Shown: positions 16,759 through 35,797 of the stretch, piece by piece
How positions within the stretch are numbered: the stretch's first letter is position 1
Layout of the letters: the number at the start of each line of letters is the position of its first letter
NCBI GenBank assembly: GCA_009801085.1
Contig: VNWV01000001.1
Coordinates: 8,184,001-8,248,000 of the forward strand
Source: Lasiodiplodia sp. COLG20
Lineage: Eukaryota; Ascomycota; Dothideomycetes; Botryosphaeriales; Botryosphaeriaceae
Reading direction: 5' to 3'
DNA length: 64,000 nt
Position numbers and translations under genes: made by a program
The notes under the pieces: generated by a model
What the model was told of the DNA's origin: nothing
Databases searched by the model: none
What the model saw: the letters and a program-made list of their open reading frames with translations, nothing else

Positions 16759-17960
16759 TTACAAAATGGCCATTGCGTTAGGCGGACTTGCAACACCCCC
16801 AAGAAGATTCAGTGGCTGACTAGTAATGAAAAAGTCCCACCTGTCATGTTGCCGACAAACGCGACTGAGCTCCTCCAAATCCCATGTCTCACCAATAGGC
16901 ATGCCCCATCCACTAAGAAATACCTTCTTTCTTGTTAGCTTGGGTGACAAATTGAAAAGCTGATTGACAGCCACGGTGGCTTACTTCGTGCATGCTGACT
17001 CCCCAAGGTTTCAACGAGGGCCAAACTTCGTACGCGACAGTGTCACTTGCAACTGCCGCGAAAGCGTTCTCCCAATGCCAACGCATTGCCTCCTCTGTCG
17101 CCTCGACGCCACAGGAAGCACGCGTCTCCCTTTGCGGGAGCGCGGCTTTTTCGGTGTCTGTGAGCCTCTTGTATTCAGTCAACCATCCGGTCCGGATGAG
17201 GAGGATATCTCCAGCTTGGAATGTAACACGCTCCTCAGCTGCCACCTCCTTGAGCTCTGCAAGAGTGATCTCATGCCGCGCGAATGGAGAGTATGTAATT
17301 TCCTTCTCCTTTGCGTATGAACACCAATCCAGCAAAACGCCACGGCCAGCAATGCCTCGCTGAGCCATACCTGAGCGCTCTATCAGCCCATGTTGTGACT
17401 TCGTACTTTTATGGAGAACAAGTATTACTTTGTATACCCAGCTGAGAGTCTGCTCCTTCTCCAGAAATTTTCTCCTGTCGGACACCATTGTAATATTGTA
17501 AAGTCTCTTGATACGGATAGTGACGGAGCCCGTCCCAATGGCTAGACCCTTGAGTATTGACATAAATCTATCATGCATTAACGTCCTGCAACACCATAAT
17601 TAGAGACATTTAGTACCTCATCATCATTCGCGTGTCCCTTCGCAACGATGCGGTGCTCACACGGCCGTCGAGCAGGATTCATCGGTTTGAGCAATCCATC
17701 AAGCGGAAGGCTATGTCATCCTTAGCATGACTCTAAACATGACAGACGTTTTGGATTCTTGACTTCAATGGTATACATGTACCGAACTCGATTTGCTTTG
17801 ATGCGCCCTTAACGAGATCCTCGGTAAGAAGATTCAAGGTTCCGAGCTGGTCGTCGTCGCCCCAGAGGCCCCAGGCCGAGGCTTTAGGATCACCGAGCCG
17901 CAATGGAAGCTCATCAAATTTTGGACGGGTGGGGTATCTGTCATATAATTTTGTGCACAT
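16759..17960 (-). CDS. Cyclase-family metal-dependent hydrolase
   Basis: A 326-residue member of the cyclase/kynurenine-formamidase-like superfamily (PF04199). It needs four introns: exons are 17960-17764, 17710-17617, 17567-17429, 17370-16985 and 16923-16759, and lengths sum to whole codons. The joins recover consensus text: CIPLN to LPLDGLLKP, ANDDE to IYVNTQGSSHWDGLRHYPY, GRGVLLDW, and HEV to FLSGWGMPIGE. The metal-site motif is H107-W-D109-G-L-R-H113. The fungal family hydrolyses amides or lactones, but substrates are mostly unknown. The first donor is GTCAAG, a weak site, yet the frame demands it. It is divergent from the AtuA/CaiB fusion gene, with a 399-nt shared promoter, which suggests co-regulation. 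Confidence 0.82.
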
Positions 17961-18359
17961 TCTGATGGGGAGAACGACGATGGTTTCGATTTCTCTGGTG
18001 GTTGATGCCCCTGTTCTGAGCCGAACTCTGAAAGCTTCATTACGAGTTTCGATGTATCTGCGGAGGCTCGGTCGTACGCAAGAAGAGGTGCGGGGTAGCA
18101 ATTGATGTCGAGTAGTACATAATCGGAATGTTGCGATATTCGCCTCGGCATTTTTCGAACCCATTTCAATCCCTTTCGCTCGCATCGAAGCTGTGGCTCA
18201 TTCTGTCCCCGCCGTCCGATGAAGCAGAACTAAAGTGCAAAATGGTACTATGAATCAGGAAACATCTGATCCTGTTGCCGTTCTCTTCAAAACCGCTTTT
18301 GTTGAGTAACTCTTTCAACTGTCTACCCCGCATTCACCGACACCACAACGCGTACGAAA
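17961..18359. promoter_or_regulatory. Shared divergent promoter, cyclase and fusion gene
   Basis: A 399-nt bidirectional promoter. Unlike other promoters of the block, it has no clear CGG-N6-CCG palindrome. A degenerate TCGATGTATCTG lies at about 18049-18060 and a lone CCGTCCGATG near 18212. A frame runs upstream of the cyclase Met without family consensus and I treat it as non-coding. Confidence 0.5.
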
Positions 18360-21300
18360 ATGTGCACTCCAAACGGTCAAAATGTCGCGGAATTCAGCAT
18401 CCTCACACCGAACGCAATGCTTGGCTACGGCTACCGCTCTGAGGATTTCTGGTACGGAATCACAAAGTACCGACCCGCAGCCATTATCGTGGACAGCGGA
18501 TCCACAGACGGCGGCCCATACAAATTAGGGATGAACAAGATGACCTGTGGAAAGGGATCATACATTCGAGACCTGGAGCCGATCTTGACTGCGTGTTACC
18601 ACCTGAAAATCAAGGTGCTTATCGGCTCGGTGGGTGGCGATGGCAGTACGAAACACGTCAAGGAGATGCTCGATATTGTCACTGGTATATCGGAAAGGCT
18701 TGGATACAGATTCAAAATTGCGACCATCGACGCAGGGATGAATCGAGATTTGGTTAATGAACGCATAGAAAAGTCTCAAGTCTTCCCTTGCGGGCCGGTA
18801 CAGAACCTCACGCGCGAGGCTGTGGATAACGCTGTAGACATAGTGGCACAGATGGGAGCTGAGCCGTACGAATACCCCCCTCTTTTCTTTTTACACGACC
18901 CATATCTCCCCTCCAAGTAAACCCTTATCAAAGCTACAGAAAGACTTTCATGCACTGAAACCCATGTTTTGAACAGATATATCGAGGCCCTTAAAGGCGA
19001 CCCGGACATCATTCTCGGCGGGCGTTCATACGATCCCGCTCCCTTCGCAGCCTTCTGTATGGCACGGGGCGTCCTTCCAGGTTTCGCTTGGCACATGGGA
19101 AAAATCCTGGAATGCGGAGGAATTTGCGCAGTTCCAAAAGGTAGATCCATGATTACGATCATGAGGCGGGATTCTTTTGACCTGAACCCTCTTGCACCGG
19201 AGGAGCGTTGCACCCCACTTTCGGTAGCTGCCCATACCTTATACGAGAAAACAAGGCCGGACAGACTGCCCGGGCCAGGCGGAGTTCTCGTCCTTGACAG
19301 CGCTGCATACTCGCAAACCACGGAGAAAACTGTCAGAGTCAGCGGTGCTGAATTCTTCCCTACCCCTTATCAAGTTAAGCTGGAAGGGGTGGAGCATCTG
19401 GGCTACCGTACTGTTTTCGTGGGCGGTATCCGCGATCCAATTCTAATCAGCCAAATTGACGACTTCCTCGATCGAGTACGGAAATATACCCAGAAGCTCT
19501 TCCCAGAGCTTGATCAGAACGAAGGATGTCGTCTCATCTTCCACAATTACGGTCGCAACGGCGTTATGGGTCCTCTTGAGCCCCGGCCAACCCCGGCCCA
19601 TGAGATTGCCGTTGTTGGCGAAGTCGTGGCCCCGACGCAGGAGCTGTCGCATACCATTGCGAACAATGCTAGAGCTTCTATCCTCCACTTCTCCTACAAC
19701 AACCAGATGGCTACAACGGGGAATTTTGCGAGTCCGTTTTCTCCCCATGAACAAGAGGCCGGCGCCGTCTTCAAGTTCACTTTATACCATCTTATGAGTC
19801 TGGAGAAGGATGAGGAGGTCTCACTGTTTCCAGTCTCCTTCCACCATATCGCGTCCAACCGGGAGCCGCAGCCATTTCAACCCATGTCGGAAGAGGAAAT
19901 TCGGGTTTACGAGAGTGGCACTCTTGCTCCGCTTAGTAGGTATTCACTGAACAAAGGACCTCTTCTGCTCATGCTAATGGAAGTAGCGTATAAAGAAATT
20001 CCATCAGGGCGGGCAAGGCTCAGCCAGGTGGCCCGAGTCATTCGGTCGAAGAACTCAGGTCCGTTTGAACTCACCTTCGATGTGATATTCGACAACGCAG
20101 ATGCCTACCACCGCACCAAGAGTGCGAAAGTGTTGACAAAAGAGACAATGAAGAGGCTGTATAATCTGGCGGAAAGCGACATCTTGATCAGCATGTTCTT
20201 TGACCTAGCGCTCGCATGGAAATGTACGATCAAGAGACCATGGCCCCAAGGAAGCGTCGGTGAGCGAGACACGCTGGGGACGCAACAACACGCGCCGCTT
20301 CTCGACATCGAAGTTCCCCCGGTAGAAAATCCGGGCCAGAATGGTGTGCAAGATGGGGTAACTAGACCCGTTCGCGAGCTGTTCACTCCGTCAAAGGTTG
20401 TCGAGGAAATCTGGGCTGGACTCGGTCTGCCAACCGCCGCGTTGGATTCCCTGTCACTGCAAAGCGATGGCAAGCCAGCTCTGCCCTCTTCCTTCAAAGT
20501 CGGATGTCTTGCTCAGAGCACGATCGCACTTTCAGCACTGTCAGCGGCACTGATCCATTCCATTCGCAACAAGACAACTGTGCCTCGAGTCACCGTTGAG
20601 CGACGACACGCAGTGGCAGAGTTCAAATCGGAAAAATTATATGTCCTGGATGGAAAGCCTGCGGCAAGCGTGTGGGGCACCATTGGAGGTCTCCATGCCA
20701 CATCCGACGGATACGTTCGTATCCACGATTCATTTCCCAACCACAGGAACGGTGCGCTCCATTTGCTAGGGCTAGATGCGGCAGCAACCCGCTCAGACGT
20801 CACGAGAGAAACCAAGAACTGGGCCAGCATCGATCTCGAGACCGTCGGATTGCAGGACAAGCTAGTCATCTACGCCCTCCGAACCTACCAACAGTGGGAC
20901 GTGCTTCCTCAAGCGAAAGCCCTCTCCAACTTCCCCATAACGATCAAAAAGCTATCCGCAGGCACGGCCGGCCTCCCGTCTCGAATGGGCCCCGGCAACG
21001 ACCGCAGCCTCCGCGGCCTCCGGGTCCTGGAACTGAGCCGCGTCATCGCCGCTCCGCTGGCCGGCAAGACGCTGGCCGCCCACGGCGCCGACGTGCTCTG
21101 GGTGACGTCGCCCACCCTGCCCGACCTCCCCGCCATCGACCGCGAGTTCGGGCGCGGGAAGCGGACGATCCAGCTGGACATACGCGGCACTCCGAAAGAC
21201 AAGGAGAGGCTCTTCGAGCTGATCCGGACGTGCGACGTCCTCATCCAAGGCTTCCGGCCGGGCAGCCTCGCGGCTCAGGGGCTGGCGCCCGAGCAGCTGG

Positions 21301-21803
21301 TCGTTCTCAACCCGAACATCGTCTGTGCGAATATGTCGGCGTTCGGCCCGGACGGACCGTGGGCTGGGCGCCGTGGCTTTGATTCCATCGTCCAGACCTG
21401 TTCGGGGATGAATGTGTCGGAAGCTGAGCACTGCGGACAGGGCGAGCCGGCCCGCCCTACACCGTGCCAGGCGCTTGACCACGGTGCTGGTTATCTTCTG
21501 GCAACCGGGGTGTGCGCTGCCTTGTATAGGCGAGCCGTTGAAGGCGGATCATATCGTGTAGATGTGTCCCTTGCAGGGGTGATGAAGTATCTACGGAGTC
21601 TTGGCCAATACGAAGGCAGGTCAGGATTTGATTGTGCTGATATAGTCTCGCCCGATCAGGTTGAGGAGTTTTTGGAAACTCGTGAAAGTGGCTTTGGGAC
21701 ACTGAAGGCTGTGAGGCACTCGGCTGTGATCGAAGGTTGTGCACCTGGGTGGGACTTCATGCCAAAGCCGTTGGGGAGTGACAAACCAGAGTGGCTCAGG
21801 TAA
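18360..21803 (+). CDS. AtuA-like / DUF4387 / CaiB-BaiF CoA-transferase fusion
   Basis: About 1,127 residues in two main exons, 18360-18916 and 18977-21803. The intron join gives PSK to YIEALKGDPDIILGGR. Three domains can be read in order. Residues 1 to about 480 are AtuA-like (DUF1446): VDSGSTDGGPYKLG, IGSVGGDGS, GGRSYDPAPFAAFC, FHNYGRNGVMG. Residues about 500-610 are DUF4387: VARVIRSKNSGPFELTFDVIFDN. From about 650 onward comes a class III CoA-transferase; the core starts at LRGLRVLELSRVIAAPLAG (about 863), with a candidate catalytic Asp1020 in QALDHGAGYLLATG. AtuA is named from bacterial acyclic-terpene use; CaiB/BaiF enzymes move CoA between carboxylic acids. The stop at 21803 sits on a good donor (CAG/GTAAGC), and splicing 21800-21844 would instead end at 21860 with SMLD. 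Likely acts on an organic acid; substrate unknown. Confidence 0.88.
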
Positions 21804-21860
21804 GCTTTTCATTCAATTTCGTTTTTCCTCTGCTTTGGATTTAGAAGCATGCTCGACTGA

Positions 21861-22336
21861 AGCGCGAGGCTGGACGGGCACACGGGTCTGTTGATTTCCA
21901 GCAAGCGCCGGGTCACTGCGGCGTGCGGAGGTTTTGATTGGCTCACCGCATTCAGCGTACTGCCACCGGATGGGTGGCAACCATTGTGTACTTGATCAGG
22001 CCCGGCCTTTTCATTAAATGCTCTGGGTCCAATCCATTGACTGCATGGCATCTGGGGACTCGATTTTGACGTTTTGCACTGAGGCAGTGTCTACTTGTCG
22101 TCGTAGACTCGCAGGTTGTAGAAAGACTCCACGGGACAGGAAAGCGCAAAGCATCTTCCGTAAATCACGCAATGTCACTTCCTCGGCTAGCACCTCGTTC
22201 GAAGTTGTGTGGCGTCGGATGCATCCGAAGAGGCCGGATGTATCCGCGACCGAACCTCCCCACAGTCTATTACACCCCGCAAGTCCCGGATGCACTCGAC
22301 ATCCCCACAGTCCGGTCCCGAAAAACGCTGCCAACC
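21861..22336. promoter_or_regulatory. Regulator promoter with two CGG-N6-CCG palindromes
   Basis: This spacer upstream of the Zn2Cys6 gene holds CGGATGCATCCG at 22216-22227, a perfect palindrome, and CGGATGTATCCG at 22235-22246, with centres 19 nt apart. A weaker CGGATGCACTCG follows near 22289. Two CGG triplets facing each other are the classic binding form of Zn2Cys6 dimers, so autoregulation is likely but inferred. Confidence 0.65.
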
Positions 22337-24415
22337 ATGGAAGAGACACCCCGGGCTGCGTCGGATGCTCCGCCCGCTCGGCGGAAGCATAGACCAGGCC
22401 TCCAGCGCATACAGATCGCTTGCGAGAGGTGCCGGAAACGGAAGAACAAGGTCAGTCATCCCGTCATTGAAACTCAGGCTTGTAGTTGATGAAATCAGTG
22501 TGATGGGAAGCTGCCTGAATGCTCGACATGCAAACGAGCCGGGGTGCCGTGCGTCGTTCTTGATCGCCTTACATACCGTGAATATCCTCGTGGCTACGTC
22601 GATGATCTGGAAGCCGAAGTGCAGCGCTTGAAGGCGAGGATCCACGAGTTGGAGCAAGAAGCAAATGCCCTTCGAGCATCTGCATCCAGCCCCACCGAGC
22701 GTGCAGGCGATCCAGAGCAGTTGGCGGATGCCCAACCCGACGGCTTTGCAGAGAACATCAACATCGTTCCACGTGACGTCACTTCGGGACGCAAATTTGT
22801 CGGAGACTCAAGTGGCCTTTTCTTCGGCAACGTTGTACAGGCTGTCCTGACTCAGGCCGACTACAAGCAGGACCATGGCCCGCCGCGTGAAAGTCTGAGT
22901 CTGCGAGTAGGAGATCGTCTATCTACCACCTCGCCCTCAGTAGCATCTCTCTGCGTAACAGAAAACACGTTCCCGGAGCCTGAATTGGCAGATCGCTTGC
23001 AGCGTGCATACTTTACCCACCGATGGCCCGCTCTTCCCGTGCTGCATCGAACATCATTCCTGGAAAAGCATTTCGCGCCCGTCATGGCCTCGAAGAATTC
23101 TGCAGATGAGGCATCACTCTTTCTAACGTTCATGGTATTCGCCCTGGGGTCGATTGATCTACAAAGGCAAGAACATGACCTGAGTGATCGCCATTTGGAC
23201 TTCTTCAACGTTGCCACCCAAAACTATCTCCAAGGTCTCATGAAGGCAGACAATATGCAGACCGTACAGGGTCTTTGTCTCGTGACTGTCTTTGCCATCA
23301 ATGAGCAGCGCAGCGCTAATGCATGGCACGTGGCTGGCCAAGCCATGCGATTCGCCATTGATCTTGGCCTTCACAGGATGTCTGCAAAGCCCCAGCTGGA
23401 CTTATTCGACGTCGAGATGAGGAAAAGGGTCTTTTGGTCTGCCTATTCTTTGGATCGCAATGTATCTCTTGCACTGGGAAGGCCGTTCGCCATCAGAGAT
23501 GCAGAAATCAACGTCCCGCTTCCCGAACCTTTAACCGACCAAGAAATCTCAAGCACCGAAGCTCCATCTCCCCGGCCTCTCGACCCCCTCGATATGTCTA
23601 CATTTATCCATATCATCAAAGTACGCCAGTTGCAGTCCAAGATCCAGGATACCTTTTACACCGCCGATGCCACCTACATCGCCCAAGAGACGGCAGATTT
23701 CCAACGAACGTTTCTTCGCACTGAGCTGGACAACTGGGTTGCACAGGCCCCTCGCTATTCTCACCCGACACTGGTTACCTTTCAGTCAACCGAGTGGTTC
23801 CAAATTGCTCACTCACATGCCCTTCTTCTCCTCTATCGCCCGTCACCAGGATGCCCCGAGGCAAATCTGGCGTCTCTGCAAATCTGCGCCGACGCTGCAA
23901 TCACACTTATCAGCTCCTACTCCTCGCTTTATGCCAAGAACAAAATCACTTACACTTGGATTGCTCTGCACTCCCTGTTCATGGCGAGCATCACCATGCT
24001 CTACACCTTGTGGGTCAGTCCGGAGATCCGGAAGACCACGAGCAAAAGGGTCGCAAAATCAAACGTCACGTCCTGTCTGGCGCTGCTCGAAGTCATGGCT
24101 GATCACTGGCCGCTGGCAAACCGCTGCCACGAAATTATTGATCGCCTTGGGAAGGCGTCGGTGGCACTCTTCGATTCGCCCGCGGTTAATGCAGGGCCTG
24201 CCGGCCCATCATTGGAGGAAGACAATCAGTACTACGGCCAGATTACCTCTGACTACATGGATTGGTTTGGCACTCGAGACCCCGGTATGCCGTCGTCTTT
24301 GGGGCCACTTGCAAATGCTTCGGAGCAGACCCGTGCATGCAACGGCGTAGATCTTGGCTTGCCATTCTTTGACAATTTGGATATGCTACCAGAATTAGAC
24401 AATCTATTTTCCTGA
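22337..24415 (+). CDS. Zn2Cys6 transcription factor (likely cluster regulator)
   Basis: A 676-residue fungal regulator, exons 22337-22450 and 22499-24415. The 48-nt intron falls inside the zinc cluster, just before Cys39. Spliced, the cysteines are C29-x2-C32-x6-C39-x6-C46-x2-C49-x6-C56. A linker and a coiled-coil follow (VDDLEAEVQRLKARIHELEQEANALRA by residues), fitting dimer binding to paired CGG sites. The fungal-specific regulatory domain (PF04082 type) covers about residues 170-450: LQRAYFTHRWPALPVLHRTSF, RSANAWHVAGQAMRFAIDLGLH and RKRVFWSAYSLDRNVSLALGRP. It sits in the middle of the metabolic block, between the fusion gene and the carrier, which suggests it controls them. Confidence 0.93.
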
Positions 24416-24512
24416 GTACCGAGTAAAATGCTAGCGCTTTTGGTCAGGCACTTCCAGATTACGTGTACGCGGAACCGATTGCCCGAAAAGCTCGAGTCTA
24501 CCCGGGCAACAT

Positions 24513-24524
24513 CGGAAGCTTCCG
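24513..24524. promoter_or_regulatory. CGGAAGCTTCCG palindrome in carrier promoter
   Basis: A perfect CGG-N6-CCG palindrome 117 nt before the Yhm2-like start codon. The inner six bases differ from the ATGCAT form seen elsewhere, so it may be a weaker site of the same regulator or a site for another one. Confidence 0.5.
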
Positions 24525-24640
24525 ACCCGAATCAGCTCAACGTAAACACCAGGAGCAGTACAAGTGCTTAATCTTTGCTATTGAACAACCTCCCTTCTCA
24601 CACGGCAAGCTGCCACTCGAACTCCTTCATTCACCTCGAC

Positions 24641-25807
24641 ATGGATCAGCAAACTGCCATGGACGTGTCTACTTCGCAGCGCACACAGCCTGTGCTAAAG
24701 GCAGCGAAGAAGAACAAAGTGTCCTGGGAGAATTTACTCATTGGAGCTGCTATGAATGTGTTTCAAGGTAAAGCTCACTGTGCCATTTAAACAACATGGC
24801 TTTGTGCGCTGATCACTTTTTCACTGTCAAGTCACAAGTTTGGGACAGCCTCTCGAGAACATTAAGACATACGTAAGTACTTCATATGAGCTCTTTCGAG
24901 ACTACCCGGGCTGATACCTAAGGAGGTTTCCGCGAACCGGAACGCGCCGCTCTCTGAAGCAGTGCGGGAAATATGGGCCCGAGGTCCTATCAAAGGCTTC
25001 TACCAAGGACTAATTCCTTGGGTATGCATCTCCGAGTGCCCCCCACAGCTAATTGATCCACTAACACAAAGGAAGGCATGGCTGGAAGCCTCCACAAAGG
25101 GCGCGATTCTGATCTTGACCTCGTCCGAAGTCCAGTACCAGGCATCTCACGCATTCGGCCTCTCGCCCGCCGTGGCTGCCACGGCCGGCGGCGTAGCAGG
25201 CGGAGCAGCTCAGTCGTACCTTACCATGGGCATGACTACGTGCATGAAGACGGTCGAAGTCACGAGGAACAAGACGGCGGCCGCAGGAAAAAGAGTTCCC
25301 GGGACCATGGAAACCTTCTTCAACATCCTGCGCACGCAGGGCATCAGAGGCGTGAATAAGGGCGTCAACGCCGTTGCCTTGCGCCAGATCACCGGCTGGT
25401 CGTCGCGGATGGGCATTTCGAGAGCGGCCGAGGCACCCATCCGATCGTTGAGTGGGAAGCAACCGGGCGAGAAACTGTCCATGTGTGAGAAGATTGCGGC
25501 TTCGACGATTGGCGGTGCGTTGAGCTGTTGGAACCAGCCGTTCGAGGCGAGTACACTCCCAATTTCTTACTGTCGTTGTTGGTGACTAACAATGGTACAG
25601 GTGATAAGGGTAGACATGCAAGCGGTCAAGACCGCCCAAACAATGACCAAGCCGACGATGCTGTCAACAGCTCAACTGATCTGGCGAGAGAATGGCTTTG
25701 GCGGTTTCTTCCGCGGAGTTGTTCCCCGCATTGGAGTTGCGGCTTGGGCAACAATCTGCATGGTTGGTCTTGGAGACACCGTCCGTGAGAGATTTGGCGC
25801 AAAATGA
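24641..25807 (+). CDS. Yhm2-type mitochondrial citrate/2-oxoglutarate carrier
   Basis: A 313-residue carrier, exons 24641-24767, 24832-24872, 24926-25021, 25076-25546 and 25601-25807. It reads like yeast Yhm2: TSLGQPLENIKTY, YQGLIPWAWLEASTKGA, YLTMGMTTCMKTVEVTR, INKGVNAVALRQ-like text and WNQPFEVIRVDMQ. The PLEN-K and PFEVIR elements are the carrier-signature salt-bridge motifs. Yhm2 exchanges mitochondrial citrate for cytosolic 2-oxoglutarate across the inner membrane. The fourth intron (25547-25600) must use a GC donor (GAG/GCGAGT) to keep NQPFE-VIRV. At the second intron two acceptors three bases apart (after 24922 or 24925) add or drop one Glu. I expect it to be a cluster paralogue beside a housekeeping copy, but that copy is not in this window. 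Confidence 0.9.
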
Positions 25808-25984
25808 GACTCTAAATGTTGTGTTGCTGTACCATCTCAGGATAATGAAATGCGCTTGCAAAATTTGATTTCTCCACTGGGTCAGAGATTAATGTCTTTA
25901 CTGAATTGCGCGGCGGATGTAACCGCCTTCCAATCAAGCGCTGCTGAAAGTCAGCGAGGCGGGAGATCGACTATTTCCCGGATG

Positions 25985-25996
25985 CGGATGCACCCG
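25985..25996. promoter_or_regulatory. CGGATGCACCCG site in aconitase promoter
   Basis: A CGG-N6-CCG element 97 nt before the aconitase start, differing from the regulator-promoter palindrome by one base in twelve. It lies in the 285-nt spacer between the carrier stop and the aconitase Met, followed by the same CGACC extension as at 22247. Confidence 0.6.
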
Positions 25997-26092
25997 CGAC
26001 CAATGAGACCCCAACGCATTTCAGCAATCAATAAGAGGCTGCAACTCCGGACAGCAGCCACACTCCATTCTTCGAAGTTATCTGAATCTCAA

Positions 26093-28594
26093 ATGTCAAC
26101 TCTGTTTGCAAGAGTCAGGAGGCCGGTCGTCGGCCCGAGGCCAAACCTTTGTCAGACTCGGAGCTTTGCCTCCGTTGGCGGAGCAGTCGGCAGAGCTCCC
26201 ATGAGCAGATACGAGCAGCACTCTTTCATCGACTATGCTGCCGTAGATTCCAAGATCCGTGCAGTCCGAGACAGGTGTGTTGTCCAGCTACGGCGTCCGT
26301 TCTTAGCACTCTAATGACAATTACAGGCTGAAACGGCCTTTGACATACTCCGAGAAAGTCATCTACGGCCATTTAGATAACGTGGAGGAAGCCGACATTC
26401 GCCGTGGTGAATCTTACCTCAAACTCCGTCCAACCCGAATCGCTTGCCAAGATGCAACTGCACAAATGGCACTAATTCAATTCATGTCCGCAAATCTGGA
26501 TACAGTGGCTGTTCCCACAACTGTCCATTGTGATCACCTGGTTGTTGCCAAGGAAGGTAGCGAAGCGGACCTCGCCTCAGCAAACTCTACCAATGTTGAG
26601 GTGTACAAGTTCCTTCAGCAGGTGTGTCGGAAGTATGGGGCAGGGTTCTGGAAGCCGGGCGCAGGCATCATCCATCAGATCGTGCTGGAAAACTACGCCT
26701 ACCCTGGTGGTCTCATGATTGGTACAGACTCGCATACACCAAATGCGGGAGGGCTTGGCATGGCGGCCATCGGCGTAGGAGGTGCAGACGCAGTTGATGT
26801 CATGGCCGGTCTTGCGTGGGAGTTGAAAACCCCGAAGGTCATCGGAGTCAACCTGACGGGCAAGCTTTCTGGCTGGGCGTCTCCAAAAGGTAACGCAATA
26901 TATCAACAAATATGGCGGTAAGCTGACTGTGGCAGATGTGATCCTCAAGCTCGCTGGAGAGCTTACAGTCAAAGGAGCAACAGGCTCCGTGATCGAGTAT
27001 TTTGGTGAGGGAGTTCATTCCCTCTCGTCCACTGGAATGGCTACCATCTGTAACATGGGAGCTGAAACTGGGGCCACTACCTCAATCTTCCCGTACACCG
27101 AAGCCACAGCTGCATATCTCGACGCCACCAACCGGACGTATCTAAGGGAAGAGGCCTCGCATTGGAGGCATAATTTCTTGGCCGACTCGGGCGCAGAATA
27201 CGATCGAGTCATCAACATAGATCTTTCGAAGCTCGAGCCGTTCATAAACGGACCTTCCACTCCAGACCTTGCAACTCCAACCTCGGCCTTCAAAGAAGAA
27301 GTCACCAAGAATTCGTGGCCTGAGAATGTGAGTGCTGGGTTGATCGGCTCATGCACCAATTCTTCATTCGAGGACCTCAGCAGAGCCGCTGCACTGGCAA
27401 AGCAAGCCATCGATGCTGGCCTCAAGCCCCGAGCGCCACTCTACCTGTCACCGGGAAGTGAACAGACCAGGGCGACACTAGATTATTCAGGAGTCCTTTC
27501 TGTATTTGACCAGGCTGGAGCTACGCTCCTTGCAAACGCTTGCGGGCCATGCTGTGGCTCCTGGAACCGTCAGGATATGGAAAAGGTAACTGGCCCGTCC
27601 CCTGCCTTCATTTTTAAAGCTAATGGTTAGAAAGGGCGTCAAGAACTCCATCGTCACATCTTACAACCGAAACTTCACGGGTCGTCTGGACAGCAACCCG
27701 GCTACGAGCATTTTTCTAGCGTCTCCCGAGACAGTTATTGCCAAAACATTCTCCGGTCGACTTGATTTTGATCCAGCTACTGATGGAATTGAAACGCCAA
27801 CTGGCACATTCAAATTCAATCCCCCTCCTCCAGGGGCACTCCCATCCAGTGGGTACAATCAAGCAGATTACGTCTACGCAGCACCTCCGACGGAACGCTC
27901 GGAAGTTGAAGTAGACATTTCACCAAGCTCAGATCGTATCCAGCGTCTTGAGCCATTCAAGCCTTGGGACGGCAAAGACTTCATAGACTTGCCCATCCTC
28001 ATAAAAGTTGAAGGTAAATGTACGACTGACCACATCACACCCGCTGGCCCTTGGTTCCGGTACCGTGGACACCTGGAGAATATTTCCAACAATACTCTCA
28101 TTGGTGCCGTCAATGCAGCAAACAAGAAAGTCAATCAGGTCGAGAACGTTTTCACCGGCGAAGTTTCTGGCGTTCCTGATACAGCAAGGGACTACAAGAA
28201 ACGTGGCCAGCAGTGGGTGGTGATTGCAGACCACAACTATGGCGAGGGGTCTTCCAGGGAGCACGCTGCTCTGCAGCCACGATTCCTGAACGGGGTAGCC
28301 ATCATCGCCAAGTCGTTCGCACGTATACACGAGTCGAACTTGAAGAAGCAGGGTATGCTTCCTTTAACTTTCAAGAGCGATGCAGACTACGACAGGATCC
28401 AAGCTGAAGATCGGATCAGCTTGGTGGGCTTGGATGCGTTTCAGCCCAGCCAGCCGGTGACCATGCTGGTAAAGCGCAAGGATGGCACCTCGTGGGAGAC
28501 ACAGTTGGAACACACTTTCAATCACGAGCAGATCATGTACTTCAAAGCAGGTAGCGCGCTGAACTTGATGGCACAAACTGCCGGATCAGGTTGA
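26093..28594 (+). CDS. Divergent mitochondrial aconitase
   Basis: A 784-residue aconitase-family protein, exons 26093-26274, 26327-26889, 26936-27585 and 27635-28594. The N-terminus ([18 protein letters not shown]...RSFASVGG) looks like a mitochondrial presequence. Core motifs are [21 protein letters not shown], the iron-sulphur Cys388 in GSCTNSS, Cys451 and Cys454 in [22 protein letters not shown], and the active-site [12 protein letters not shown]. Usual aconitases read CGPCIGQWDR; here an extra Cys455 replaces Ile, with Ser for Gln and Asn for Asp. TGRND is TGRLD. All three cluster ligands and the catalytic Ser loop are kept, so a hydratase is expected, but perhaps on a modified tricarboxylate instead of citrate. 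It lies between the citrate carrier and the permease. Confidence 0.93.
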
Positions 28595-29234
28595 TTTGCG
28601 TAGGTGAACAGATAGTCTGGCAAAACAATAATACAGCTTGATTTCCTGAGCCATTCCTTCTTCAAACTCACACCATAACCTTTATGTTTTGAACCAAGCT
28701 TGACATAAAAAAAAACACAGTGCCCGCTTCATGAGACCTAAGTATAAGCTCCTCTGATGATCCAATTTATATGGGTGCTCATTTCACACTCTATTGAGCA
28801 CATTCTTGGTTAGAAGAGCTTAAAATTCAATTCTGCTTGAACTTCACTTCTTATCTCCGCTCTCCTAGTAATGAGGTGATTATACCTGTGGCAAGACGCG
28901 GCAAAATCCATCGGCAATTCCCACAACTCACGGAGACGCCAAAGCTAGCGGCAAGCGTTTCCCACGAAGCGTGACTCCAACCCCGCACTTCCCCAGATAA
29001 TTCCCATCCCACTATCAGGTCATCTCCACACTTGTCGGTTACATCCGTGAGGTGTCAAGCTTTGGACACGGACATCAGCGGACCAATCATGATCACTGTG
29101 TTTTCCCTGCGCATCCGTGGACATGTTCTGAAGCATTCCCACAAGCTCAAGAAGCAATAAATAGTGCCCTCTACTACTGGTGTCACTCAACCGGAAATTC
29201 CTCTCAAGCCATTCAGGGTCACTTCGGTTTCGCC
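28595..29234. promoter_or_regulatory. MFS promoter with CGGTTACATCCG site
   Basis: This 640-nt spacer precedes the permease gene. CGGTTACATCCG lies at 29036-29047, and half sites CATCCG and CGGAC occur nearby (29060-29125). The left part near 28700 has an A9 run and AT-rich 3' flank of the aconitase gene. No gene seen. Confidence 0.55.
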
Positions 29235-31048
29235 ATGTCTTCTGTCTTTGCACGATCCCCTCTGGGAAAGTATGTGGCCAGCATCACAGCCTCCCCAAAT
29301 GGCCTCTTCAACAGGCATTTAATTTTAACCGTAATCATGTACGCCCTTGGCGGCATGCCAAAAGGTGAGCGCCCTCCTCAAAGGTTTTGATGGCTTTCGT
29401 GTCTGACGTTGGACTGCAGGGTGGGACGAGGGCACTACTGCGTCCATCACTCAACTCAAGGCGTTTCAGCGAGAGTTCGGTATAACTCCATCAGACAACC
29501 CCGACCAAATATCCAACATCGTATCCTTCGTCAACATCACAGCTGGCATCGGCGCGCTGCTGTCGTTCCTGCTGAATGATCGCCTCGGCCGCATCTGGTC
29601 GTACCGACTTTACATGGCGGTCTATACGATCGGCAACATCATCGAGACCTTCTCAAGCGGCAGCCTACCCGCACTCTACATTGGACGACTAGTGGCCGGC
29701 GCAGGTATCGGAGCCTGTACGGTGGTTGGCCCGATGGCCATTGTCGAAATCGCGCCGGCCGCCACGAGGGGGCTGATGACACTTTGGTTCAACGTGTGCA
29801 TGCTGTCCTCGCAGATGGTCGGCATCTTCACCGTCTTCGGCTGCGACCGCCACGTTTCGCGCGACACGAACCTGCAGTACCAGATTCCGTTCTTTGTGCA
29901 GTGCTTCGTGCCGGCAATCGGAATCACCATGTCATTCTTCCTGTACGAGTCGCCACGATGGCTCTGTCTCAGGGGTAGGCATGAGGAGGCTTTCTCAACA
30001 CTTGTCACCATCAGGGGACTAGGCCAAGATCACGCCTACCTCGTTGCGGAATGGGACCAGATGCGCGATCAGGTCGCCCGGGAGAAGGAGGAGTTTGGCG
30101 GCCTCGGTTACATCTCGATTCTTCGAGAGACTTTCTGCGTTCGGGCCAACCTGAGGCGCGTTCAGCTGGTTGTTGTGGCCTACATCCTCGCGCAGTTTTC
30201 TGGCGCGAACTCAGTCACCAATTACCTGCCAGAGATATTCGGCATTGTTGGTGTGGAGTCAACTGATGTCAAGGTCTACGCTTCAGGCCTCTACGCTCTC
30301 GCCAAGCTGATTTGTTGTGTGGCTGCCTCATTGCTGTTCGTCGACGTTATTGGCCGACGGAAGTCACTGTTCATTGGCATCACTGTACAAATGCTTTGTC
30401 ACAGCTACCTCGCCGGCTATCTGAATTTCTTTGTTAGAGATGAAGACAGCGTTCCGAAAGGGGCTTCAGATGCCGCCATTGCCGTCATCTACATTCACGC
30501 CTTTGGGTGGGCCGTAGGTAAGACGCCCCTGTTTTATGCCACTCCACTCTCAAATATCAAATACTTATACAATTTTAGGCCTCTATACCTTACCATATCT
30601 GTTCGGCGCAGAGCTCTGGCCCAACAGGCTTCGCTCCTTTGGTGGTTCGCTTTCACAATGCTTCCATTGGCTCTTCTACTTCGGTATCACCAAGGCAACT
30701 CCGTCTCTCCTCAACTCCATGAATCAGTGGGGCGCTTTTGTCTTCTTTGCTGCCTGGTGCTTTATTGCCATCATTTACGTATTTATCTCGGTCCCAGAAA
30801 CCGCTGGCCGAGCTTTGGAAAACATCGACGATCTTTTCCAGCACCCGTGGTACATGATGAGGAAGTATGCGCGCACAAATACCACAGTCACAGATAAAGC
30901 TCTTTCTTCGGCATCAAGGTACGGTCATGGCTACGAGTGGAGATTCCTTCCCAGCTAACTGTTTCCCAGAGATCATGCGGAGAAAATTGAGGAACATGCG
31001 AAGTATGAGGTTGAGAAAATTGAGGATGTTGAGCACGGCAGGAATTAA
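29235..31048 (+). CDS. MFS permease, sugar/quinate type
   Basis: A 548-residue transporter from four exons: 29235-29364, 29420-30517, 30579-30918 and 30970-31048. The joins restore GGMPK-GWDEG, GWAV-GLYTLPYLFGAELWP and SASR-DHAEK. Sugar-porter features are visible: NDRLGRIWSYR after helix 2, GRLVAGAGIGACTVVGPM, YESPRWL after helix 6, the DVIGRRKSLF loop, and PETAGRALENID after helix 12. The pattern recalls fungal quinate permeases and related acid/sugar importers of the plasma membrane. The tail is charged (EKIEEHAKYEVEKIEDVEH). In this context it is the likely importer of the pathway substrate, which is an inference. Confidence 0.9.
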
Positions 31049-31520
31049 GTTCCAACCTCATTGTTGATGGTGAAGGACTTTTCTTTACGCAAAAACATTT
31101 CGGTGCAAAGGTGGCACGATGATGGAAGAAGGGAAAAGCAGGAGTGCTGTTGAGTAATATCTATCAGACAATCTTCAGCTTTGTCTGAATTCAACAAACC
31201 AATTGCTACAGACCTCTCTCTGGAGTATTTTCAATGGCGATACGTAATTTCAAATAGTGGGTCTGTCTAAGAAGCGATCAAAAGACATAAAGGAGATCAC
31301 GCCCAGTTGAAATCCTACTGCAGTTCTCATAATGCCTCTGCGAATGCATCCGCAGTTAGGAATGCGGATGCGTCGGGTCATCTCCGCTCAAACCACCTTT
31401 ATCGGATGTCCCCGAATCAAATCATACTTAAGTAATACGCATATCCACAGTAAGTCACAGTCTCCGGAATCAGTCTTGGCATATCGTGCGGGGTTGGCCT
31501 TGGGTGGAGAAACGCCAAGT
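31049..31520. promoter_or_regulatory. Amidohydrolase promoter with near-palindromic site
   Basis: The spacer holds CTGCGAATGCATCCGCAG at 31338-31355, an 18-bp palindrome with one mismatch that contains CGAATGCATCCG, one base from the regulator-promoter site. A second element CGGATGCGTCGG follows at about 31365. A frame opens from ATG 31332 through this site, but I treat it as leader, since the downstream Met 31521 gives the better start. Confidence 0.55.
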
Positions 31521-32700
31521 ATGAACGGGCCAGTATCTATGCCAGAGAGTCGCAAAGGCCACGACTCCGATACCGCGAAAAATTTGATGGCTCTGGCTCC
31601 CTCAATGGCTCTTTCGAACGGCTTTCCGGCCGCTAATGGCGTACGTCTGGGGCCCAACAGGTGCGTAAACAAGAAGCCTTCCACGACAGAGCTGACTCGT
31701 GTAGCTTGGCTCCCCCAAATGCAAGCAGCGATGTTGCCTGGCACCTGCCTCAGGGGTCCTGGGAAACTCATGTTCATGTGTTTGACCCAAGGTATCCTTA
31801 CTCGCCCGAGCGACAATATACCCCAGTTTCAGCCCTGTACGACGAGCTGTTGGAGTTCAACTCCAACCTCAGCGTGACTGATTTGCCCGGAAACATTGTT
31901 CTTGTCCAGCCATCACCTTACGGGTCGGACAATTCCTTGATTTTGGATCTTCTCCGAAACCATTCCCTTTCTCAGCAGAGCAGCCTCCTTCGCGCCATTG
32001 CCGTCATCGACCCCGAGAACGTGACGGATGAAGAGCTCCACGAGATGAACGCGCTTGGCGTGAGAGGCATTCGCATCAATACCCAGGCAGCCAATTCCAC
32101 AGAGACTGCCGAGGAGCTGCGCAGAAACATCACGGCCGCCGTGGAGAGAGTCAAGGGTTTCAACAATTGGAAATGCCAGCTGTACATCTCCGGGGACAGT
32201 TGGGACTGTGAGTTATCCCCAGCGGATCAGCGCTGCATATCGCTGATTCGAGCCCTCTAGATATCCATGATCTTGTCCGTGATCTCCCCATCCCGGTCAT
32301 TGCAGATCACCAGGGCGGCATGGGAGGCCTCACAAAGCTTGCGAATGGGAGCACAGACGTGACTGCCCAGCCGGGCTTTGCGTCCCTTCTCGACTTGGCC
32401 AAGAGTGGGAAGGTTTTTGTCAAGATTTCGGCGTTGTATCGCTCGTCGAAGTTAACCGTGGGTGGCTATGATGACCTGGAGCCGCTTGTCAAGGTCTTTG
32501 CCCAAGAAGTCCCGCAACAGCTCATTTGGGGTTCAGATTGGCCTCACACTGGGTCAAACCGTACAGAGGCCACGAGATATGTACCAGAACCATTCCGGAA
32601 GGTCGACAATGAGGCTGTTTTGAAGAACATCAGAAAGTGGGTAGGGTATGACGTTTGGCGCCAGATGACGGTGGTCACCCCCGGGAAAATCTATATCTGA
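31521..32700 (+). CDS. Amidohydrolase (PF04909), pyrone-dicarboxylate-lactonase-like
   Basis: A 360-residue metal-dependent hydrolase, exons 31521-31660, 31705-32207 and 32261-32700. The TIM-barrel starts with WETHVHVFDP (the HxH metal motif). RAIAVIDPENV, LHEMNALGVRGIRINTQA, IPVIADHQGGMGG (His on strand 6) and LIWGSDWPHTG (the Asp of strand 8, typical SDWPH) follow. This set fits the amidohydrolase_2 family, which includes LigI, the lactonase opening 2-pyrone-4,6-dicarboxylate to 4-oxalomesaconate, and 4-sulfomuconolactone hydrolase. The first intron is only 44 nt, so the N-terminal 46 residues are the least sure part. Located beside a PrpF/GalD-type gene, whose family acts on 4-oxalomesaconate; the pairing suggests a linked step. 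Confidence 0.83.
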
Positions 32701-33059
32701 ACATGTTTCCCAAACATTTTGGCGCTGATGCAATTTGCATCATTCCGTCTTGCTGCACTGGTGGAGATGTATGGTTCTCAGTTGCACTTCTTTGTCTCAC
32801 AGGGGGCATGTGGGCGTCAGCAAATCTACCATGTAGAAAGTGTTTATGATCAAAGTATCTATCCATTAGCATTAACAGCTATTTGAATGTTTTACATTAT
32901 GTTCTCGTCAAAGTAATCAAAAACTTTCGACTCTCGGAAGACCGGCGAGTCAACTGGACCATCGGCTACATCCGAGGTTCGCGGAGATCTACTACTACAT
33001 TTAAATTACTGTAGCATCAAGACGAGAGGCATACACTACCATCAATCAACCATCTAATC
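32701..33059. promoter_or_regulatory. PrpF promoter with CGGCTACATCCG site
   Basis: A 359-nt spacer with CGGCTACATCCG at 32963-32974, 86 nt before the PrpF start. It matches the permease-promoter site in eleven of twelve bases. The left half is AT-rich 3' flank of the amidohydrolase gene. Confidence 0.6.
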
Positions 33060-34319
33060 ATGGCAGCAACTCGAATGGCCACCAACATGGTTGGTGTCCC
33101 TCGTATCGCCATCAGGCGTTTTCATCAATCGGCCCCTCTGCTCAAGCAGCAAAATCGGCTACCGGCGGCGTACTACCGAGGCGGCACATCACGAGCGGTA
33201 TTCTTCCGCCAAGACGACCTTCCAGCCGACCGAAAAGGATGGGACAATATTTTCCGAGGCGTCATCGGCTCACCGGATCCAAATGGAAGGCAGCTCGACG
33301 GCATGGGCGGCGGGTTATCCAGTCTTTCCAAAGTTTGCGTGGTTGGGCCATCAAGCCGCGATGATGCAGACGTTGACTACACGTTCGTTGCCATCGGGGT
33401 CAAGAATCCGGAGGTCGACTTCTCGAGCAACTGCGGTAACATGACAAGTGCTGTCGGGCCCTTCGCGGTGGACAGCGGATTGTTTCGCGCAGCAGGTGGG
33501 AGTGGCAACGCGACTGTCCGGATTCACAACACCAACACCGGTAAAATTATCCATGCCAAATTCCCTGTCGACGGGCCAGAAGCCGAAGCGGATGGAGATC
33601 TGGCAATCGACGGAGTTGCAGGTACGGGCGCCAGGATCCAGCTAGCGTTCCTGAATCCATCGTAGGTCTGACGCCGCCCCTGAAAATCCTCAATATACTT
33701 ATGACAATGATCTAGTGGATCGAAAACGGGCAAGCTACTACCAACCGGAAATATGACAGATGAATTTGACGGCATCACCGCGACCTGCATCGACGTAGGC
33801 AATCCGTGCGTTTTCGTCCAGGCCTCGGACTTGGACGTCCCCGGAGGCATCTTGTCGCATGACATCGAGGCCCACCCGACACTTCTCGGGCGCCTTGATT
33901 CCGTGCGCAGAAAGGCTGCAGTTGCAATGGGCATCTCGACCAGCGAGGATGCTACGCCAGGATCAATCCCCAAGATTGCCATGGTCTCTGCTCCGCATTC
34001 GCACAAGATCCTTTCGGGGCAATCTCTGGACGAAGGTCAGTGCGATCTTGTGGTCAGAGCCATATCAGTTGGTCAGCCTCATGGAGCTGTTCCTATTACA
34101 GTAGCAATGGCACTTGCTGCTGCTTCGCGCTTGCAGGGCTCCACTGTCCAGCTAAACACGTCATCAAAGCCTGTGGATGCAGACGGCGTCACGATTGGGC
34201 ACAACAGCGGTAGGATTCTTGTCGCGGCGGATTTTGATAAAGAAGGAAGTTTGTTGGCTGCGACTGTATTCCGCACTGCGAGAAGGCTAATGGAGGGTAC
34301 CATTTTCTGGAAATCGTAG
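33060..34319 (+). CDS. PrpF/GalD-family isomerase, mitochondrial
   Basis: A 401-residue member of the PrpF family, exons 33060-33661 and 33716-34319. The first 33 residues (MVGVPRIAIRRFHQSAPLL) look like a mitochondrial presequence with an RRFHQS cleavage context. The fold is marked by AAYYRGGTSRAVFFRQDDLP, GGGLSSLSKVCVVGPS, CGNMTSAVGPFAV with candidate catalytic Cys125, and VGNPCVFVQASDLDV. The family isomerises unsaturated tri- and dicarboxylates: 2-methylaconitate (PrpF), 4-oxalomesaconate (GalD), methylitaconate. With an aconitase homologue and a tricarboxylate carrier nearby, an aconitate-like substrate in the matrix fits well. Exact substrate is unknown. Confidence 0.9.
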
Positions 34320-34829
34320 GTAGAGTGTATATTTTGGTGGCAGATCAGCATCAGAGACGACGTTGATTTGTCTCTCCACCCAAGTTTGAGATTTAACAAG
34401 GTAGTGTAAGCAATTCAACATCGAGCCGTGTGCTATGTATGACTAGGGCAGTGGTGGTGTTGGTAAGCGGTGTTCTAGGTCCCTAACTCCGCGCGTACTT
34501 ACGTGTTGAAAAGTGGGCATCAACGAATAAAGCTCTTGAACTGTCCACATTCTATTGATAAGCTTACGGACCCCTCTTGTAGACACACCTCGGAGGTCGC
34601 AATGTCGGGGCCGACGGTAGTCTTTGACCGATCAAACAAGAGTTGTGACTGGTGCCTTCGGACGTTCCGGACCTCCGGCAGCCCGAGACTACCATGCCGA
34701 ACGCTTAGCTAGTATCATATTGCATCACCATTGTTCCAATCGATCAAGCTTTAAGAACCCCATGTCTGCAAGGTATAACCTTGGTCCCTAGAGTTTAACT
34801 TCTACATCCCAGAAACGGCTTCCTCAAAC
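34320..34829. other. SDR promoter region
   Basis: A 510-nt spacer. It lacks a CGG-N6-CCG element but has CGGACGTTCCG (spacing five) at 34659-34669 and other CGG/CCG triplets at 34570-34690. No gene seen. Confidence 0.45.
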
Positions 34830-35797
34830 ATGGACAAATCGACCAATCTCCAGATCGGCCATCAAGACCTCAACGGCAAGAATGCAATCGTAACGTACGC
34901 CCTCAAAAGAGTGCTTCCGCTACATGGTTAAAGCTGACTGCCTGCTCACACACCATCAGTGGTGCTTCCAGGGGAATAGGACGTGCGATCGCCATCCACC
35001 TGGCCAGCCGAGGAGCATCAGTCATCGGAACATGCTCATCACCAGATTCCCTACACCACATTGAGAACATCAACAGTATAGTCACCGATGCGTATAAGAA
35101 TTCCGGCCTCCAGCCTGCCCCAAAGATTCTCGGCCTTCCCGCCAACCTTCTGTCACCCGATGTGCCAGCCCTTATGCTTGACGCTGTGAAACGCGATTTC
35201 GGAGGAAAGCTGGACATCCTCGTCAACAACGCGGCTTATGACGAAATGCGGCCGATCGGCGAGCTGGACCCCGACTACGTGCAGCGGAGCTTGTTTGGCA
35301 ACATCCAGACCCTGGTCATGTCCGTGGATGTGCTCTTCAGAGAGGGCGTCTTTCAACCGAACTCGCGCATCGTCAATATTTCGGCCGAGCTGACTAGGGG
35401 TCCTTTGCCGCACAAGTGAGCCGCATGTGCATCATGTTGTCCTCCCAATAGCTAATCACCATCGTGCAGTTCCTTCGGCCTGTTTGCTGCAACCAAAGCG
35501 GCCATGGAGTCCCTGACACGCACCTGGGCTGACGTCTTTGGCAAGCATCCATCCATGGCTGGCACTACGGTCAATGCGCTGCTAGTGGGTGCTACGGAGA
35601 CTGACGCGTTCTGCAAAGGCCTGTCACCTGAGCTGACAAAGGCTATTGTGGACCGCATCGTCGGGAGCACCTCTTTGGCAAGATTGGGGAAACCAGAAGA
35701 TACTGCCGATCTCGTAGGACTCTTGGTCAGCGAGAAGGCTGGATGGATCACGGGCTCGGTGGTTGCGGCTAATGGCGGTAGTGCAAAGATTTTGTAG
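34830..35797 (+). CDS. SDR-family protein with Phe in place of catalytic Tyr
   Basis: A 282-residue classical SDR, exons 34830-34894, 34960-35415 and 35470-35797. The cofactor motif is VTGASRGIGRAIA, and LDILVNNAAYDE gives the NNAA motif. NISAEL supplies the usual Ser. At the YxxxK site the join across the second intron reads NSFGLFAATKAAMESL, so Phe179 stands where Tyr is expected, while Lys183 is kept. GWITGSVVAANGG is the normal C-terminal strand. Loss of the Tyr hydroxyl usually removes dehydrogenase activity, so it may bind a substrate without redox, or use another residue. The Phe codon (TTT) is unambiguous in the sequence given. It is the last gene I assign to the block. Confidence 0.87.

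Follow-up and report, generated by a model that had tools for sequence, protein, structure and literature searches.

A palindrome-marked six-gene unit in Lasiodiplodia sp. COLG20 and its possible role in the breakdown of a carboxylated lactone

A stretch of 64,000 nucleotides from the plant-associated fungus Lasiodiplodia sp. COLG20 (assembly GCA_009801085.1, contig VNWV01000001.1, positions 8,184,001 to 8,248,000), referred to here as the window, contains nine neighbouring genes that a first-pass annotation, made from the DNA letters, had assigned to one catabolic pathway for a tricarboxylate-like acid. All nine were modelled from the window DNA, with introns chosen by eye and by script and not from RNA, and all splice to full proteins without internal stops. 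Pfam places the products in the families Cyclase, Zn_clus with Fungal_trans, Mito_carr, Sugar_tr, Amidohydro_2, PrpF, short-chain dehydrogenase (SDR), and Aconitase with Aconitase_C, and finds AtuA, DUF4387 and CoA_transf_3 joined in a single protein (AtuA-DUF4387-CaiB, the AtuA fusion). The nine annotated genes are thus present and intact, with agreement on the families that were checked, and the limits given for the set, the stop codons of the cyclase gene at 16759 and of the SDR gene at 35797, match the gene models (Table 1).

Six of these genes share a promoter element, the palindrome CGGATGCATCCG, which occurs as an exact copy once in the window, in the promoter of the Zn2Cys6 transcription factor, the presumed regulator of the pathway. 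With up to two mismatches allowed, the window holds 11 matches against 3.54 expected, a number reached by none of 100 shuffles, and ten of them sit in six promoters: three in that of the regulator, two each before the aconitase and amidohydrolase genes, and one each before those for the mitochondrial carrier, the major facilitator superfamily (MFS) transporter and the PrpF-family isomerase. These promoters total 2,455 bp, for which 0.12 sites would be expected from the genome-wide rate (2,177 sites with at most two mismatches in 43.5 Mb on 88 contigs; the reversed word gives 1,413). No site, even at nine matching letters, was found in four flanking promoters with a total length of 1,980 bp (left of the cyclase gene, between cyclase and AtuA fusion, SDR, and the gene at 36.2 kb). 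A caution on these counts is that the word tested was itself taken from the regulator promoter. With this promoter left out, seven sites remain and cover all of the other five promoters, and 2,000 shuffles reached at most two of the five. The regulator promoter contains 462 words of 12 letters; six of these recur in at least three of the other five promoters, and all six overlap the sites at 22216 and 22235. If no word is chosen at all, CGG-N6-CCG occurs eight times in the six promoters and any other spacing between 0 and 12 at most twice. An inverted CGG repeat is therefore present in all member promoters and in none of the neighbouring ones, the pattern of a utilisation cluster under Zn2Cys6 control. 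Because the palindrome occurs in six of six promoters and in none of those flanking them, we take the regulator, carrier, aconitase, MFS, amidohydrolase and PrpF genes (22337-34319) as a putative local regulon. The shared promoter sites claimed by the first-pass annotation are thus real for these six genes and do not extend to the cyclase, AtuA fusion and SDR genes. The eleventh site in the window, at 40407, lies outside the cluster. At 40391-40418, also outside, there are two CGG-N6-CCG words, one of them a single-mismatch palindrome.

Table 1. Genes and palindrome sites of the window, and the two loci elsewhere in the genome discussed in the text. Scores are in bits; aa, amino acids.
Feature	Position	Strand	Model	Support or remark
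Zn2Cys6 transcription factor	22337..24415	+	676 aa, exons 22337-22450 and 22499-24415	Zn_clus 41, Fungal_trans 125
Mitochondrial carrier	24641..25807	+	314 aa, 5 exons	Pfam Mito_carr 85
Mitochondrial-type aconitase	26093..28594	+	784 aa, 4 exons	pig aconitase match 987
MFS transporter, sugar-porter family	29235..31048	+	548 aa, 4 exons	Sugar_tr 287; TIGR00879 267 (cut-off 238)
LigI-type (cog3618-like) amidohydrolase	31521..32700	+	360 aa, 3 exons, start codon uncertain	Amidohydro_2 82
PrpF-family isomerase	33060..34319	+	401 aa, 2 exons	Pfam 353
AtuA-DUF4387-CaiB fusion	18360..21862	+	1131 aa	Pfam; no promoter site
Cyclase-family hydrolase	16759..17960	-	about 326 aa, 5 exons, divergent from AtuA fusion	Pfam; no promoter site
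Short-chain dehydrogenase	34830..35797	+	282 aa, 3 exons	Pfam; no promoter site
Palindrome, exact, CGGATGCATCCG	22216..22227			regulator promoter
Palindrome, 1 mismatch	22235..22246			regulator promoter
Palindrome, 2 mismatches	22287..22298			regulator promoter
Palindrome, 2 mismatches, CGGAAGCTTCCG	24513..24524			carrier promoter
Palindrome, 2 mismatches	25914..25925			aconitase promoter
Palindrome, 1 mismatch	25985..25996			aconitase promoter
Palindrome, 2 mismatches, CGGTTACATCCG	29036..29047			MFS promoter
Palindrome, 1 mismatch	31341..31352			amidohydrolase promoter
Palindrome, 2 mismatches	31365..31376			amidohydrolase promoter
Palindrome, 2 mismatches, CGGCTACATCCG	32963..32974			PrpF promoter
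RraA-like gene	C12:4612500-4613740, from C12:4613651 downwards	-	spliced by eye	
Second locus	C45:2455104-2464867, about 10 kb			aconitase, LigI-type amidohydrolase, Zn2Cys6-like gene, MFS

Genome-wide, the exact palindrome occurs four times and the reversed word twice. Outside the window, one exact copy lies on contig C12 (C12:4613729), 77 bp upstream of the start codon of an RraA-like gene. Genes of this family had been searched to probe a pyrone-dicarboxylate route before the position of the site there was recognised, and the chance of such a coincidence is about 3 in 100,000, or 5 in 10,000 over the roughly 45 loci of the families considered. The encoded protein reaches 62.6 bits with the Pfam family 'Aldolase/RraA', sufficient for assignment by Pfam, and carries a GG-X20-RD motif, which we take to be typical of RraA-family aldolases. 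Though unlinked, the gene probably belongs to the regulon of the cluster. The two remaining exact copies, one within a long open frame on C56 and one past the end of a gene on C78 as judged by eye, look incidental. As sites with up to two mismatches are common (about one per 20 kb), only the exact RraA site is claimed; for a further RraA-like gene, on C3, a two-mismatch site precedes the match by 634 bp, and the stretch around a PrpF gene on C67 has one site more than 4 kb away. The promoters of the AcoA-like and AcoB-like aconitase genes, the PrpF genes on C67 and C40, the RraA-like gene on C7 and the amidohydrolase genes on C56 and C72 carry none. From the matches listed, 35 one-mismatch sites with both CGG and CCG halves intact were chosen and 15 examined; ten frames near them were rhodopsin-like, fructose-1,6-bisphosphatase, HET, thioredoxin-like or without match, and none was a ring-cleavage enzyme. 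One such one-mismatch palindrome (CGGATGGATCCG, C12:4703592) is located about 340 bp before a frame for the gluconeogenic fructose-1,6-bisphosphatase, which may be chance.

The solved structures nearest to the amidohydrolase, as judged by PDB alignment, are 2-pyrone-4,6-dicarboxylate hydrolases. The protein keeps H31, H33, Y49, S77, R124, H180, R217 and D248 of LigI, among them all four residues (H31, H33, H180, D248) which we take to serve metal binding and catalysis. The likeliest function is that of a lactonase for a carboxylated lactone, with pyrone-dicarboxylate as one candidate, and this acid, which the first-pass annotation had named, remains among the better ones. In NCBIfam, the Diplodia relative P0241 matched 4-sulfomuconolactone hydrolase alone, with 117 bits where 500 are required. 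Among the best 80 of at least 542 bacterial relatives, whose flanks were fetched, 21 loci have an isopropylmalate/isocitrate-dehydrogenase-like gene, 28 a tricarboxylate-transporter binding protein, four an aconitase-family gene and none a PrpF gene. This context would fit lactones of hydroxy acids and singles out none of them. A relative at L116, which lies beside an isopropylmalate/isocitrate-dehydrogenase-like gene as do those at L117 and L119, reaches no NCBIfam cut-off.

The PrpF protein, 95% identical to a protein of Lasiodiplodia theobromae, matches 3-methylitaconate, 2-methylaconitate and oxalomesaconate isomerases in PDB, and 4-oxalomesaconate tautomerase is the best-scoring NCBIfam equivalog of its 95% identical Lasiodiplodia relative P0121. 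Equivalents of K73 and C107 of Shewanella PrpF are retained, and a loose pattern of both is present in all of the best 120 homologues; both residues are reported to be required in PrpF, for which activity on trans-aconitate is reported as well (PMC5690661; this and the other articles given by PMC number are drawn on in excerpt). The first 40 residues of PrpF and of the aconitase each hold seven basic and no acidic residues, so that both N-termini appear presequence-like, as in mitochondrial presequences, unlike that of the amidohydrolase. The carrier may be Yhm2-like, Mito_carr being the one family that was established for it. Two further PrpF genes in the genome are 54% and 38% identical to the window copy. 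The third PrpF gene, at C40:24293-41064 on a contig of 87.6 kb, lies near a fungal-regulator-like frame, a sugar-porter MFS gene and, as judged by eye, a mitochondrial-carrier-like frame.

The genome holds four mitochondrial-type aconitases. The window copy, which had been called divergent in the first pass, shares 57.8% identity with pig ACO2 across 747 aa. The copy at 40.7 kb on C45 is closest to the pig enzyme (70.6% over 599 aligned positions) and presumably represents the housekeeping AcoA, and the one at C23:3177105-3179415 resembles AcoB/Aco2p, in that lysine replaces the substrate-fixing arginine and the SSRE motif contains an alanine. In the window copy and a fourth one at 2.456 Mb on C45, that arginine (R580; R604 of Aco1p) has not been exchanged for lysine, and the two share a proline two places after DHI. 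The arginine has been tied to aconitate activity and is missing in Aco2p and AcoB; fungal aconitases act on homocitrate, by dehydration, and on homoaconitate, and AcoB was inactive on the substrates tried, for which 'yet unknown substrates' were suggested (PMC3556520).

The aconitase at 2.456 Mb is part of a second locus on C45, where it lies together with an amidohydrolase, a Zn2Cys6-like gene and an MFS gene. Identity to the window genes is 41-66% by segment for the aconitase, 29% for the amidohydrolase, 31% for the MFS protein and 27% over 460 aa for the Zn2Cys6-like protein (39% over a 61-aa zinc-cluster stretch). The C45 amidohydrolase is likewise nearest to LigI in PDB, and Pfam supports both the amidohydrolase and the sugar-porter; the C-terminal open frame of the regulator-like gene, taken alone, gave no Pfam match. 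The chance of an aconitase lying within 5 kb of an amidohydrolase paralogue is about 0.2%, by simple arithmetic on three paralogues of each. Against a close kinship, the amidohydrolase on C56 has a slightly higher score than that on C45 (120 versus 116 bits). The C45 locus offers a natural control for the window cluster.

Linkage in other fungi was judged from contigs of identical base count, not from annotated synteny, among the best 120 matches of each of three protein searches, whose queries were the AtuA fusion, the PrpF protein and the amidohydrolase. A paralogue may have been taken for an orthologue, and Penicillium salamii and Aspergillus wentii, whose assemblies may be mixed, are excluded. 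Relatives of PrpF and of the amidohydrolase occur together on one contig in Diaporthe sp. PMI_573 (1,814,220 bases), Aaosphaeria arxii (1,689,044), Macroventuria anomochaeta (378,574) and Cadophora sp. DSE1049 (93,047, one of two listed PrpF), thus in four of four named genomes for which a PrpF and an amidohydrolase with 55% identity or more were both listed, and also on one contig of 17,897 bases. In contrast, AtuA fusion and PrpF lie on different contigs in five of five species (Aaosphaeria, Corynespora, Venustampulla, Diaporthe ilicicola and Diaporthe amygdali). By this measure, and where the amidohydrolase is close, PrpF and amidohydrolase are not scattered in relatives, whereas the fusion is separate. 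Seven Fusarium gene models joining a fusion to a regulator were dropped as evidence of synteny, that regulator being 25-42% identical to the one in the window over parts. Fungal metabolic genes often adjoin one another, and the six genes might share a promoter word for some other reason, without a common pathway. We consider this very improbable, given a palindrome in six of six promoters where 0.12 sites are expected and the recurrence of both PrpF-amidohydrolase and aconitase-amidohydrolase pairings.

Taken together, we read the six genes, probably along with the unlinked RraA-like gene, as a regulator-controlled system that breaks down a lactone whose ring opening yields a 4-oxalomesaconate-type acid, and would assign this reading a rough probability of 0.4. 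The catalytic and transport steps are deduced from family membership throughout. The MFS protein would import the lactone, pyrone-dicarboxylate or a relative, and the amidohydrolase would open its ring. The open acid would be brought into the mitochondrion by the carrier, its double bond moved by PrpF and water added by the aconitase acting as a hydratase, after which the RraA-like aldolase would cleave the hydrated product to pyruvate and oxaloacetate. The enzymes would thereby act in the sequence of bacterial LigI, LigU, LigJ and LigK. A hydratase of the aconitase family is plausible here, since 4-oxalomesaconate is the 4-oxo analogue of homoaconitate. As no ring-cleavage gene with a promoter site appeared among the loci read, the lactone would be taken up ready-made. 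The identity of the lactone and the role of the aconitase are the least certain steps. The broader expectations of a cluster with its own regulator around tricarboxylate chemistry, and of breakdown as likelier than secondary-metabolite synthesis, are both supported. A bolder version appears doubtful to us: this would be the first fungal 4-oxalomesaconate route, with a duplicated mitochondrial aconitase, neither AcoA nor AcoB, as an iron-sulphur 4-oxalomesaconate hydratase working between the cog3618-like lactonase and PrpF before it and the unlinked RraA-like aldolase after it, and with two lactonase and aconitase modules, in the window and on C45, tuned to different lactones.

Several observations weigh against this route, beginning with ring cleavage, for which the loci read gave no gene with a promoter site: a LigB-like gene on C67 has a two-mismatch site about 2 kb upstream, and a LigB-like locus on C12 has none in the stretch read. 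Two of the four arginines that we take to bind the substrate carboxylates in LigI (R124, R130, R183, R217) are replaced in the amidohydrolase, R130 by alanine and R183 by glycine. The R183 column holds glycine in 33 of 34 relatives, and the amidohydrolase group as a whole therefore differs from LigI. The best PDB match of the C12 RraA-like protein is yeast YER010C (49.5 bits), and with 30.6 bits the protein misses the LigK/PcmE cut-off of NCBIfam (304.5); the PrpF relative P0121 likewise stays below the cut-offs for 4-oxalomesaconate tautomerase (317 versus 440 bits) and 2-methylaconitate isomerase (283 versus 440.55). The MFS protein belongs to the sugar-porter family. At the C45 locus neither PrpF nor carrier was found in the stretch read, and its regulator ranks fourth among the paralogues of the window regulator. 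The linkage evidence outside this genome covers two of the six genes, and in Aspergillus brasiliensis CBS 101740, the one clean comparison under 55% identity (its amidohydrolase is 45% identical), PrpF lies elsewhere (contigs of 3,829,555 and 475,792 bases). Finally, the window aconitase keeps nearly all active-site residues of the pig mitochondrial enzyme, with one change, S571T, in eleven motif blocks, the roles of these residues, apart from that of the substrate-fixing arginine, being assumed here. It may hence be a plain aconitase, and an enzyme moved to a longer substrate is equally possible.

In the main rival, trans-aconitate, or a lactonised relative of citrate or isocitrate, would be imported, converted by PrpF to cis-aconitate and by the aconitase to isocitrate, which enters the tricarboxylic acid cycle. 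The retained substrate-fixing arginine, which Aco2p and AcoB lack, agrees with this, as do several published cases: bacterial tarA (PrpF family), tarB (MFS) and tarR assimilate trans-aconitate (PMC11495376), Ustilago Adi1 of the PrpF family interconverts cis- and trans-aconitate and its gene adjoins the mitochondrial carrier gene mtt1 (PMC4720413), and in wastewater A. niger brought trans-aconitate down from 5.7 to 1.6 g/L within 10 days (PMC5771024). The rival would thus follow the tar operon and run opposite to Ustilago Adi1/Mtt1. On plain trans-aconitate, however, amidohydrolase and RraA-like aldolase would be idle, and the exact site before the RraA-like gene lowers the odds of aconitate use, which we regard as unlikely, though worth keeping in view. 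The same genes could also be read in the opposite direction, the cluster making and exporting trans-aconitate or a derivative, with the carrier moving cis-aconitate out of the mitochondria and the MFS protein as exporter. The Ustilago itaconate cluster also contains a PrpF-family isomerase, a mitochondrial carrier, an MFS protein and a regulator (PMC4720413), and transporters have been named as likely setters of direction (PMC11495376). Yet none of the nine proteins is a Tad1- or CadA-type decarboxylase, the N-termini of PrpF and aconitase are presequence-like whereas Ustilago Adi1 is cytosolic (PMC4720413), and a lactonase and an aldolase suit use better than synthesis. Synthesis and export thus appear improbable, and lactone breakdown remains the preferred reading.

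Membership of the AtuA fusion, cyclase and SDR in the unit, and with it the single nine-gene pathway of the first-pass annotation, is not supported by the present data. Such a pathway would have all three as working members; the genes adjoin, and bacterial AtuA and DUF4387 pairs often lie near genes of the fumarate-hydratase type and for methylaspartate ammonia-lyase, MmgE/PrpD and tricarboxylate transporters. The fusion is widespread in Pezizomycotina, with its closest named relatives in Lasiodiplodia (89% identity over 90% of the query and 94% over 35%), and its bacterial counterparts are separate adjoining genes. Among eight bacterial plasmid loci with AtuA and DUF4387, genes of the fumarate-hydratase type occur in three, accompanied in one case by methylaspartate ammonia-lyase, three have a tripartite tricarboxylate-transporter binding protein, one also MmgE/PrpD, and two have none of these genes within 8 kb. 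The fusion probably acts on C5 unsaturated dicarboxylates, a chemistry related to that of the unit. In one of the 80 bacterial amidohydrolase loci (L041) a CoA-transferase like the CaiB half (42%) adjoins the amidohydrolase, but an AtuA or DUF4387 match was found in none of the 80. Together with the promoters lacking the palindrome and the separation of fusion and PrpF in all comparable species, this makes a nine-gene pathway rather improbable. The term DUF4387 appears in none of the papers of one open-licence literature search. Elsewhere in the window, open frames at 8015-10289 resemble, by eye, a haem-peroxidase fatty-acid dioxygenase, 13515-14786 encodes an LDB19/arrestin-like protein and 49968-50864 a 2OG-Fe(II) oxygenase.

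If the proposed reading is true, fungi would possess a gene set for acids of the pyrone-dicarboxylate or aconitate type. Such acids occur in plants: high amounts of pyrone-dicarboxylic acid are reported from strawberry leaf (PMC9415522), and grasses contain abundant trans-aconitate, which is active against nematodes and planthoppers (PMC11495376). It would also offer a role for extra fungal aconitases, and the regulator with its predicted site makes the idea directly testable. The component families are known, and gene layouts of this kind have been described before; no fungal cluster with this combination was found in the open-licence literature searched, in line with the first-pass annotation, which knew of none. 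In A. niger, gallate use reportedly requires an FAD monooxygenase and six induced clusters are dispensable; a quinate module is mentioned as well, and none of the induced clusters, as they appear in the excerpts, matches the window gene set (PMC10512348).

Among known systems, the extra mitochondrial-type aconitase recalls fungal AcoB/Aco2p, but the window copy keeps the arginine, and it is the C23 copy that has lysine like AcoB (PMC3556520). The cluster shares with tarA-tarB/tarR of Bacillus velezensis a PrpF-family isomerase with an adjoining MFS protein and a putative dedicated regulator (PMC11495376); it differs in its additional aconitase, mitochondrial carrier and amidohydrolase, in the Zn2Cys6 type of the regulator and in the sugar-porter type of the MFS protein. 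With the Ustilago maydis itaconate cluster (adi1, mtt1, tad1, itp1, ria1) it has isomerase, carrier, MFS protein and regulator in common. Here, however, a Tad1-type trans-aconitate decarboxylase is absent among the nine proteins, the regulator is of the Zn2Cys6 and not the helix-loop-helix type, and aconitase and amidohydrolase are extra (PMC4720413). Among fungal utilisation clusters, the arrangement further resembles the qut/qa quinate clusters, in which a Zn2Cys6 regulator, a permease and catabolic enzymes adjoin. The chemistry is different from that of qut/qa, and no repressor partner was seen. Close in its enzymes is also the bacterial 4,5-cleavage route, in which LigI, LigU, LigJ and LigK convert pyrone-dicarboxylate to pyruvate and oxaloacetate and LigJ is an amidohydrolase-type hydratase. 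Differences from this route are the aconitase in the place of LigJ, the two replaced LigI arginines, an RraA-like protein nearer to yeast YER010C than to LigK and encoded by an unlinked gene, and the mitochondrial carrier and presequence-like N-termini. In common are the LigI-type amidohydrolase, the PrpF-family isomerase, which matches the oxalomesaconate isomerase of PDB 6p3h, and an RraA-like aldolase whose gene carries the shared palindrome. Genes of all four families, lactonase, PrpF, hydratase and RraA-like aldolase, have the palindrome in their promoters, but the hydratase is of the aconitase type and the aldolase gene lies apart from the cluster.

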